This document shows positions 28,376 to 31,853 of a stretch of DNA of 64,000 bases, one piece after another. How positions within the stretch are numbered: the first letter of the stretch is position 1; each line of letters begins with the position of its first letter. The translations under genes were made by a program, and so were the position numbers. The notes under the pieces are model-generated. The model saw nothing but the letters and a program-made list of their open reading frames with translations. It had not been told where the DNA came from and made no database searches. Source of the DNA: Pseudomonas bubulae (GTDB taxonomy: Bacteria > Pseudomonadota > Gammaproteobacteria > Pseudomonadales > Pseudomonadaceae); assembly GCF_037023725.1 (NCBI RefSeq), contig NZ_CP146077.1, positions 4,253,001-4,317,000 on the forward strand, given 5' to 3'.

Positions 28376-28846
28376 TTACTCGCCAAACGCATCCTTCAGA
28401 AAGCCCGGGGCGATATAGCGCTGATAATGCGCTTCGGACAGGAGGAAAAATTCCCGATCAATGGCATCGCGCAGATCGGTCAGCGGCCAGCCGCGAAACT
28501 CCGGCAACAGCACCATGCCGTACAGCTCCAGCTGGTTGATCACCCGCGCCCCGCGGGCAATCAGCTGGTAGGCCCAGCAATACTCGGACTGGGCAGGCAC
28601 AAAGCGGATTTTGCGCGCCACCAGCTGGTCACGCAGCGTGGCCCGGTCGAACACTTCGACCTTGCCGGCCATCACCTGCACCAACAACTGCTCGAGCCGA
28701 CGCCACACGGCACGCTTTTCTTCCTCGTTGTAACCGTTCCAGTTGATCACTTCATGATGGAAACGCTTGCAACCACGGCACACAAGGTCGCCGTAAACCG
28801 TTGAGCAAAGGCCTATGCAGGGGGTCTTGATGGTTTGATTGGACAT
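28376..28846 (-). CDS. DUF1289 cysteine-motif protein
   Basis: This 156-residue protein begins with a DUF1289 domain: Cys10, Cys14, Cys23 and Cys26 (TPCIGLC and LVCRGC) form a likely metal-binding knuckle, followed by the family pattern FHHEVINWNGYNEEEKRAVWRR split over residues 29-50. The remaining about 100 residues are a less common C-terminal extension. The function is not established; small DUF1289 proteins occur near Fe-S and stress genes. It is convergent with the usp gene, 4 bp apart. Start 28846 gives MSNQTIKTPC. Confidence 0.85.
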   Translation of the reverse strand: MSNQTIKTPCIGLCSTVYGDLVCRGCKRFHHEVINWNGYNEEEKRAVWRRLEQLLVQVMAGKVEVFDRATLRDQLVARKIRFVPAQSEYCWAYQLIARGARVINQLELYGMVLLPEFRGWPLTDLRDAIDREFFLLSEAHYQRYIAPGFLKDAFGE

Positions 28847-28993
28847 GGCGAAATAGAGCACTGCAGAACGAAACAGGTGGCCATGTTAGCCCTTTGTCTA
28901 ACGCAGATCACCCCTCAACCTTCAGGGCCTAACTTACCTTTAACAAGTTTTTACCGTAGAATCGGCCTGCCTTTTAAGGCGCCAATGTCCGTT
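28847..28993. other. Intergenic region, upstream part before acnB
   Basis: No gene is seen. A TAGAAT hexamer at about 28960-28965 is a possible -10 for rightward transcription toward the structured element and acnB, but its -35 is weak. A short GCCTTTTAAGGC palindrome lies next to it. Confidence 0.35.
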
Positions 28994-29132
28994 AGAAGCT
29001 GTTTTCAAAGCGTCACGAGCACAGTTGATCCCGAAGAACGGTGTTGGTGAGGGGTGTTTGCACTGCAGATACCCCCACCGACATTCATCATCTCCCCCGT
29101 TCGGAAGGCGTAAAACTTTGAAAACAGCTTCT
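28994..29132 (+). ncRNA. Large inverted-repeat element / candidate structured leader RNA before acnB
   Basis: A perfect 17-bp terminal inverted repeat (28994-29010, AGAAGCTGTTTTCAAAG, against 29116-29132) encloses 105 bases with two further nested stems: 29036-29041 with 29097-29102 (GAACGG/CCGTTC) and 29042-29053 with 29072-29083 (TGTTGGTG...GGG with CCC...CACCGACA, one mismatch). The whole would fold as one long hairpin in RNA. It ends 120 bp before the acnB start. A GTT triplet flanks both ends, so a miniature inverted-repeat transposable element is an alternative reading. Confidence 0.6.
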
Positions 29133-29159
29133 GTTGGGAATCCTTGAAACTCTGGCCAA

Positions 29160-29232
29160 GCGGCTCATAAAGCCGCGCAGCGCATGAGTGCTCGGCATTC
29201 CTGGATGAGCGTCCCGGACACCCATTTGGGAC
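29160..29232 (+). other. acnB leader with two additional hairpins
   Basis: Between the large element and acnB lie a GCGGCT/AGCCGC hairpin (29160-29176) and a GTCCC/GGGAC hairpin (29211-29232), the latter ending 7 bases before the AGGG ribosome site. No coding region is seen here. Confidence 0.5.
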
Positions 29233-29252
29233 CAATGATGAGGGTAATAACT

Positions 29253-31853
29253 GTGCTTGAAGCCTACCGCAAACATATCGAAGAGCGCGCAGCACTGGGT
29301 ATCGTTCCCCAGCCGCTTAACGCCGAACAAACCGCAGGCCTGGTTGAGCTGCTGAAAAACCCGCCTGCCGGCGAAGAAGAATTCCTCGTAGACCTGATCA
29401 CCAACCGCATTCCGCCGGGTGTTGACGAAGCTGCTTACGTAAAAGCCGGCTTCCTGGCCGCGATTGCCAAAGGCGAAGCGACCTCTCCGCTGATCAGCAA
29501 AAAACGCGCTGTTGAACTGCTTGGCACCATGCAGGGCGGCTACAACATCGTGACCCTGGTTGACCTGCTGGACGACGCGGAGCTGGCTCCGGTTGCCGCC
29601 GAGCAACTCAAGCACACCCTGCTGATGTTTGACGCCTTCCACGACGTTGCAGAAAAAGCCAAGAACGGCAATGCCCACGCCAAAGCCGTGGTGCAGTCCT
29701 GGGCTGACGGCGAGTGGTTCAAGAACCGCCCTACCCTGGCTGACAAAATCAGCCTGCGCGTGTTCAAGGTAACCGGCGAAACCAACACCGACGACCTGTC
29801 GCCGGCACCGGACGCCTGGTCGCGCCCTGACATCCCGCTGCACGCCCTGGCCATGCTGAAAATGGCCCGTGACGGTATCGTGCCGGACGTGCAAGGCTCC
29901 ATCGGCCCGATGAAGCAAATCGAAGAAATGCGCGGCCAGGGCTTCCCTATCGCTTACGTCGGTGACGTAGTCGGTACCGGTTCGTCGCGCAAGTCGGCAA
30001 CCAACTCCGTACTGTGGTTCTTCGGCGACGACGTTCCTTATGTACCGAACAAGCGTGCCGGCGGTTTCTGCTTCGGCAGCAAAATCGCTCCGATCTTCTA
30101 CAACACCATGGAAGATGCTGGCGCACTGCCAATCGAATTTGATGTTTCCAACATCAACATGGGCGACGTGATCGACCTGTACCCGCACGCAGGCAAAGTC
30201 TGCAAGCACGGTACTGACGAAGTCATCACCACTTTCGAACTGAAAACCCCGGTTCTGTTGGACGAAGTACGCGCTGGCGGCCGTATTCCGCTGATCATCG
30301 GCCGCGGCCTCACCGAGAAGGCTCGCGCCGAGCTGGGTCTGGGCCCTACCGACCTGTTCAAGAAGCCTGAAGCACCGGTTGAAAGCACCAAGGGTTTCAC
30401 CCTGGCGCAGAAAATGGTCGGCAAGGCTTGCGGCGTGACTGGCGTTCGTCCAGGCACTTACTGCGAACCGAAGATGACCACCGTAGGTTCTCAGGACACC
30501 ACCGGTCCTATGACCCGTGACGAACTGAAGGACCTGGCGTGCCTGGGCTTCTCCGCTGATCTGGTGATGCAGTCGTTCTGCCACACCGCGGCTTATCCAA
30601 AGCCGATCGACGTGACCACCCACCACACCCTGCCTGACTTCATCATGACCCGCGGCGGTGTTTCCCTGCGTCCGGGCGACGGCATCATCCACAGCTGGCT
30701 GAACCGCATGCTGCTGCCGGATACCGTCGGTACCGGTGGTGACTCCCACACCCGTTTCCCGATGGGCATTTCGTTCCCGGCCGGTTCGGGCCTGGTGGCG
30801 TTCGCCGCAGCTACTGGCGTAATGCCATTGGATATGCCGGAATCGGTTCTGGTTCGCTTCAAGGGCGAAATGCAACCGGGCATCACCCTGCGTGACCTGG
30901 TTCACGCCATTCCTTACGTCGCTATCCAGAAAGGCCTGCTGACGGTAGAGAAGAAAGGCAAGATCAACGAATTCTCGGGTCGTATCCTGGAAATCGAAGG
31001 TCTGGACAACCTGAGCATCGAGCAAGCCTTCGAACTGTCCGACGCTTCGGCAGAACGTTCGGCAGCCGGTTGCACCATCAAGTTGTCCAAAGAGTCGATC
31101 ACCGAATACCTGAACTCCAACATCACCCTGCTGCGCTGGATGATCGGTGAAGGTTACGGCGACGCACGTACCCTCGAGCGTCGTGCTCAAGCGATGGAAG
31201 CCTGGGTAGCCAACCCTGAGCTGATGGAAGCCGATGCTGACGCCGAATACGCGCACATTATCGAAATCGATCTGGCTGACATCAAAGAGCCTGTGCTCTG
31301 CGCGCCAAACGACCCGGATGACGCCCGTCTGCTGTCCAGCGTTGCTGGCGAGAAAATCGACGAAGTGTTTATCGGTTCGTGCATGACCAACATCGGCCAC
31401 TTCCGCGCTGCGGGCAAGTTGCTGGACAAGGTCAAAGGCCAGCTGCCAACCCGTCTGTGGCTGTCGCCGCCGACCAAGATGGACGCTCACCAACTGACCG
31501 AAGAAGGCTACTACGGTATTTACGGCAAAGCTGGCGCGCGCATGGAAATGCCGGGCTGCTCGCTGTGCATGGGTAACCAGGCACGTGTAGAGCCGAACTC
31601 GACTGTTGTGTCGACTTCGACCCGTAACTTCCCGAACCGTCTGGGTGACGGCGCGAACGTTTACCTGGCTTCGGCCGAGTTGGCGTCGGTTGCCTCGATC
31701 CTGGGTCGCCTGCCTTCCGTTGAGGAATACATGGCCTACGCGGCAGAGATCAACACCATGGCTGCGGACGTGTACCGCTACCTGAGCTTTGATCAGATCG
31801 CCGAATTCCGTGAAGCGGCAGCCAATGCCAATATCCCGGTTATTCAAGCGTAA
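29253..31853 (+). CDS. acnB: Bifunctional aconitate hydratase 2 / 2-methylisocitrate dehydratase AcnB
   Basis: This 866-residue enzyme interconverts citrate and isocitrate in the TCA cycle and methylisocitrate in propionate use. AcnB order is seen: N-terminal HEAT-like domain, swivel domain (about residues 165-300) and the Fe-S domains; iron-sulfur cysteines lie in [10 protein letters not shown] and [11 protein letters not shown]. Start GTG 29253 has AGGG eight bases upstream and gives [13 protein letters not shown]; in-frame ATGs at 29184 and 29235 would cover the hairpin leader. It is followed by a strong terminator. Confidence 0.96.

Follow-up and report, generated by a model that had tools for sequence, protein, structure and literature searches.

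A conserved structured RNA leader upstream of the aconitase gene acnB in the Pseudomonas family, with a predicted bistable fold at the ribosome site

Introduction

Translational riboswitches such as preQ1 and SAM-II act by hiding the SD, while the MITEs of the Correia/nemis and ERIC type fold as RNA in untranslated regions and are multicopy and scattered. Candidate cis-acting RNAs also precede genes of central metabolism in Pseudomonas, as in the sucA-II (RF01758), sucC (RF01759), gabT (RF01738) and icd leaders described in the available part of PMC2864571, a text in which, over that part, neither "aconit" nor "acn" occurs. For acnB itself, the available part of PMC4150767 describes control in E. 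coli by RyhB at the ribosome-binding site (RBS) and by apo-AcnB at the 3'UTR, and acnB is listed among the PrrF targets in the part of PMC6321483 that was consulted. Our literature searches returned no paper on the Pseudomonas acnB leader; acnB is not mentioned in the accessible part of PMC8545117, and a word search of PMC8297930 gave no match.

Here we analyze a long hairpin that lies between acnB and a divergent DUF1289 gene in the window, the whole 64,000-nt stretch of Pseudomonas bubulae DNA under study. With preQ1 and SAM-II the acnB leader has in common an upstream domain, an invariant loop and a predicted second fold over the SD and start, but its outer helix, P1, is longer and more sequence-fixed than the usual aptamer helix. 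With Correia/nemis and ERIC it shares inverted ends that form a long hairpin, yet here the element is single-copy and fixed at acnB. It is set apart from the sucA-II, sucC, gabT and icd leaders by its lack of any Rfam match, a distinction drawn from search scores. Iron-linked RNA control involving the RBS is shared with E. coli acnB, whose additional element, according to the available part of PMC4150767, is a 3'UTR with a protein, whereas the one considered here is a 5' leader.

Results

The hairpin is built on a perfect 17-bp inverted repeat, AGAAGCTGTTTTCAAAG at 28994-29010 and its exact reverse complement at 29116-29132, with arms that reach 24 nt at 88% identity on extension. Folded as RNA, the 145-nt stretch reaches -66.6 kcal/mol, whereas its shuffled versions average -35.6 (z -8.18; none of 200 shuffles as good), with the nested stems that an earlier note on this DNA had described, and the repeat ends 121 nt before the acnB GTG at 29253, in agreement with the gap of about 120 bp given there. 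The gene (29253-31853) had been identified correctly, since it matches TIGR00117 at 1552 bits (cut-off 1287.2) as well as PF11791, PF06434 and PF00330. Further hairpins that had been placed in the remaining leader were recovered as covarying stems in columns 170-221 and 240-263 of alignment A2. The earlier note had found no RNA family to match, and an Rfam search of 28400-29700 at E up to 5 likewise returned nothing for the leader above a gathering cut-off; its sole match, P17, scores 14.9 bits (cut-off 45) and lies beyond the leader, on the opposite strand.

From 5' to 3' on the plus strand, the leader comprises a putative promoter, P0, the first arm, CGTCACGAGCACAGT, P2 and P3, GGCGTAAAA, the second arm, P4, P5, the SD and the GTG. 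A consensus promoter scan found none at the leader, which counts against the switch proposed below, and we infer the promoter (TTACCT at 28934-28939, 17 nt, TAGAAT at 28957-28962) from columns conserved in 97 unique leaders. P0, a small GCCT/AGGC hairpin at 28969-28980 close to where the RNA is predicted to begin, appears, on inspection, in varied forms in most of the alignment rows displayed. P1 pairs the 5' arm GAAGCTGTTTTCAAAG (28995-29010) with the 3' arm CTTTGAAAACAGCTTC (29116-29131) in near-invariant pairs, one position of the 3' arm being A or G (a U-A or U-G pair). Inside it the alignments display two invariant internal-loop strands, CGTCACGAGCACAGT at 29011-29025 and GGCGTAAAA at 29107-29115, which enclose the variable stems P2 (29036-29041 with 29097-29102) and P3 (29041-29049 with 29076-29084). 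Downstream, P4 is a covarying hairpin domain between the second arm and P5, and P5 (GTCCC/GGGAC, 29211-29232) lies directly 5' of the SD. Upstream of the acnB promoter, CATGTTAGCCCTTTGTCTAAC at 28883-28901 is kept in many relatives and may belong to the divergent DUF1289 gene.

The distribution of the element is broad and its position fixed. A 278-nt query running from the repeat into acnB placed it at the head of acnB in 293 of 298 sampled genomes of the genus, and a second search of the other five was also empty. The 30-nt GAAGCTGTTTTCAAAGCGTCACGAGCACAG, at up to 3 mismatches, has matches in 312 of the 398 family genomes sampled, spread over 13 of the 19 genera, with at most one per genome among the matches listed, and a 23-nt piece was found in at least 80 named records, all of which, among the matches listed, are Pseudomonas, Stutzerimonas or unplaced Pseudomonadaceae. 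We assembled 210 loci and parsed 208 (L240 and L253 have no parsable leader); the element sits at acnB in 206 of these, namely those whose stretch reaches the gene. The start codon was found automatically in 202, whose 183 unique leaders were used; among the other six, L200 and L233 stop before the gene, the start reads CCGTGCTCG, a variant, in L133, L218 and L220, and the spacer is longer in L228. The leader of P. fragi D12 (L208), compared with that of the window over the 276 positions between the first arm and the beginning of acnB, acnB letters included, differs at 10.

For the outlying genera, where the strict pattern is missing or mostly so, we viewed 28 of 30 acnB upstream regions, excluding L324 and L326 at contig ends. 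Arm forms are present in genera g7, g9, g13, g18 and g19, while no arms were seen in five genomes of g5 and none were found by pattern search in g3. In L314 and L316 (g7) and L315, L317, L318 and L320 (g18) the arms are kept, the CACGAGCACAGT loop is absent and there is no clear anti-SD. The g5 loci (L308-L311, L313) have a different acnB leader that lacks the arms and keeps the same SD and start region, with a long GAAGCACTGAATAA hairpin in place of the armed leader in L308-L310.

The arms and internal loop (CGUCACGAGCACAGU / GGCGUAAAA) are almost invariant: of the 16 P1 pairs, 12 are constant across 30 sequences drawn from several genera, and 15 across 28 Pseudomonas leaders. Only one P1 pair is jointly changed in the set of 30, and 120 of 500 shuffles do as well, which counts against the switch model. 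The stretch from the first loop strand to the second arm, by comparison, ranges from 68 to 216 nt, and single-sequence folds of these interiors have a mean z of -3.9 against shuffles, with all 183 unique leaders below 0 and 97% below -2. Across 28 diverse leaders, 27 cells are changed on both sides of a pair, compared with 7.6 in shuffles (none of 500 as high). These come from P3 (21 cells, 6 pairs) and P5 (6 cells) only, because the anti-start and anti-SD helices described below are almost invariant in Pseudomonas; in P5 a single C-G pair becomes G-C in 6 of the 28 leaders, with all cells paired. P2 was judged from single-sequence folds since alignment A2 misplaces it in some rows.

Two elements between the arms are complementary to the ribosome site of acnB. 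The anti-start (CGAGCACAGU; CGAGCACAGT at 29016-29025) is complementary to the initiation region, and CGAGCACAGT, exact in 201 of 208 loci, can form 10 pairs, one of them G-U, with ACTGTGCTTG (29250-29259) over the GTG, a match that 10 of 20000 shuffles reach. Given 28 diverse leaders and no prompting, RNAalifold picks both the anti-SD/SD and the anti-start/start helices, although its best consensus omits P1, which counts against the switch model. Against the anti-start stand the unchanged start region of g5, where the arms are absent, mismatches in L201 (P. oryzihabitans) and L256, and the loss of the element in g19. In g13, reading by eye, L321 and L323 allow a 6-bp pairing directly 5' of the GTG, as does L322 with one mismatch.

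The anti-SD, usually CCCUCAUC, is complementary to the acnB SD region, and CCCTCATC, found in 148 of the 183 unique leaders, is the complement of the SD GATGAGGG. It mostly occupies the single-stranded strand between P3 and P2, and lies instead in an apical loop in L102 and, in the shorter form CCTCATCA, in L201 and L228. Measured as duplex energy, interior against the 24 nt upstream of the start reaches p <= 0.05 in 72% of the 183 leaders; because those 24 nt include part of P5, we replaced this measure by the run of contiguous Watson-Crick pairs between each interior and its own SD region. At least 7 such pairs occur in 31 of 43 leaders (40 diverse leaders and three from g13), against 4.2% expected from shuffled interiors of the 40. 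The remaining 12, which count against the switch, are L118, L121, L123, L136 and L255, all five with CCCTC only, and L053, L055, L090, L125, L237, L242 and L247. The window itself (L047) has 7 contiguous pairs, matched by a fraction of 0.03 of shuffles, in which TCATCAT of the anti-SD site ATTCATCAT (29083-29091) pairs with ATGATGA of the SD region AATGATGAGGG (29234-29244; CTGATGAGG is the form usual in relatives and is also complementary to the PrrF seed). The anti-SD of this lineage is comparatively weak, with 5 pairs in the near relatives L053 and L055. In g13 the SD is AAAGAGGG with the loop CCCTCTTT in L321 and L322, and AAAAGAGG with the loop CCTCTTTT in L323; judged from these sequences, the two partners have changed together.

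Conservation across genus and family, joint changes in the variable stems and complementarity to the ribosome site thus all support the structured acnB leader that had been one of the earlier proposals, beside a processed small RNA and a MITE. The leader RNA is real and, as far as our searches show, undescribed.

We propose that the leader alternates between two folds whose energies are close. In the open fold the invariant arms would pair as P1, leaving the SD and GTG free, while in the closed fold the SD would be taken up by the anti-SD and the start codon by the anti-start, and translation would be blocked. Since P1 crosses both RBS helices, the two folds are mutually exclusive unless a pseudoknot forms, in which case P1 and the RBS helices might coexist. 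Across the 183 leaders, the energy gap between the lowest fold containing P1 and the lowest containing the anti-start helix has its median at -1.5 kcal/mol and its quartiles at -3.0 and 0.4, with 162 within 5 kcal/mol; the closed fold is lower in 56 and the P1 fold in most single leaders. Shuffling the variable parts moves the median to -4.5 with a wider spread, and the gap lies within 3 kcal/mol in 74% of 61 native leaders (every third leader) versus 29% of 122 shuffled ones. Which fold wins for the window varies with the 5' end chosen: the closed fold does so for 272 nt from 28991, and P1 does so by 1.1 kcal/mol when 28 nt before the arm are included. Near-equal energies of this kind suit a switch, as predictions made on leaders that are not independent samples. 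An invariant loop is present in the leader, and the alternative fold over SD and start that characterizes translational riboswitches is present here by prediction. A metabolite, a protein such as apo-AcnB, a small RNA or the ribosome could each tip the balance.

The same architecture could serve processing, a reading that we consider unlikely. P1 would then be an RNase III site, cleavage would remove the anti-SD and anti-start to give an open acnB mRNA, and the excised hairpin might persist as a small RNA acting on SD-like sites as PrrF does. A perfect 16-17 bp helix kept by sequence and the placement of both RBS-pairing elements between the arms would fit; however, the arm sequence is more invariant than an RNase III site alone would need, and a helix of the length of P1 is near the lower size limit for RNase III.

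The window's genome has two PrrF genes above the Rfam cut-off, and all of 32 genomes searched gave PrrF matches at E <= 0.1, in 27 of them above that cut-off; among the 28 of these 32 loci that were read, the seed is CCTCATCA in 26 and CTCATCA in two. The usual acnB SD TGATGAGG is complementary to CCTCATCA, which would place the PrrF seed over the RBS, and the usual cis anti-SD has the same letters as the seed. An unrestricted scan for PrrF duplexes did not rise above shuffles, 190 and 81 of 200 of which reached energies as low, and is uninformative. In a further, somewhat less probable reading, arms and loop are mainly the binding site of a trans-acting protein or small RNA and the RBS complementarity carries little weight. 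In its support, the near-invariance of the arms exceeds what a helix needs, and pairing with PrrF could explain why g5 keeps its start region without arms. Against it, the anti-SD persists although the loop that holds it differs between leaders, and in g13 it has changed along with the SD. In g13, PrrF loci carry CTCCTCATCAGG in three of four (L402, L404, L405) and GTCTCATCAGG in L407, and the acnB SD no longer fits PrrF and instead fits the cis anti-SD, which suggests, from sequence comparison, that the cis pairing is conserved in its own right.

Control of acnB by a leader peptide from the ATG at 28985 is very improbable: ATGTCC is present in 150 of 183 unique leaders, but it is missing in 33, the frame spans 3 to 93 codons where present, and a scan of the leader found no terminator-like site. 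On the first two of these grounds we rejected it.

The weakest reading is that a MITE or other mobile element of the present day stands before acnB by chance. Its inverted ends and their likeness to a multicopy repeat found in other genomes speak for it, but copy number, fixed position and flanks allow it to be dismissed. The window's genome holds one full copy, and no match was found in the phage and plasmid records searched or, with a 20-nt piece, in viral contigs; repeated 18-nt matches in this genome are TTAAGATGTTTTCAAAG at six places, presumably the rRNA operons. Among relatives no clean empty site was seen, g5 having a different leader. The GTT that had been noted at both ends is indeed there in the window, but its resemblance to a target duplication did not hold, since the right flank varies among the 183 unique leaders (TGTA 55, TGTT 35, TGTG 19, TGCA 16, and others) and is mostly unlike the left.

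The multicopy repeat was encountered outside the family, where covariance model R1 found hairpins in 2 of 390 genomes, both of f41 and neither at acnB (G853, E 2.5e-6; G795, E 9.3e-6 per genome, strict filters). Repeat matches number 26 in G795, 33 in G154, 46 in G284, 11 in G085 and one each in G134 and G853, with no match in G000 or G020. The ends of the copies are paired, as in AGAAGCTGTTTCATAA with CGTMRCGAGCG after it, and resemble the acnB arm and loop, while the inner 3' ends of repeat and leader differ. We parsed 15 of 20 copies, and a profile of these, some of which had been found through the acnB model, scores the best leaders at 14.3-16.1 bits and the best decoy at 7.3; a profile of 12 copies chosen apart from acnB gives 10.6 bits for the best leaders and 7.2 for the decoy, with two stretches that are not acnB leaders at 12.2 or above. 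These likenesses between sequences are suggestive, and argue weakly, for a possible old MITE origin. As for the repeat itself, its core is CGTMRCGAGCGAAGG ... CCGAGCGCAGTAG (L345, L347-L375; G853, G795, G154, G284, G085), the flanking inverted arms vary from copy to copy, several copies lie inside terminator-like palindromes, and five repeat loci gave no Rfam match. The interior of the L125 leader (G085) exceeds the usual length by about 125 nt and includes a stretch that looks like a copy of the repeat (L363).

Discussion

Taken together, sequence and folding make a bistable switch of acnB translation the most likely account, and we regard it as reasonably probable that the hairpin forms the 5' part of a structured, conserved acnB leader exerting such control. 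Because the usual cis anti-SD has the letters of the PrrF seed, closure of the leader would mask the PrrF site as well. A more ambitious scenario, which we hold to be doubtful, combines these features: an ancient miniature transposon, captured before acnB in an ancestor of the Pseudomonas family, would have become a bistable leader with a cis copy of the PrrF seed, its mRNA either open to ribosome and PrrF or self-closed and hidden from both. If true, this would provide a built-in guard on the iron-sparing response.

Aconitase B connects the TCA cycle with iron and with oxidative stress. A strongly conserved leader carried before its gene by 312 of 398 family genomes, absent from Rfam and from the papers that our searches returned, would give central metabolism a new point of control, and the overlap between cis anti-SD and PrrF seed would offer a simple model of an mRNA that tunes its own exposure to a small RNA.
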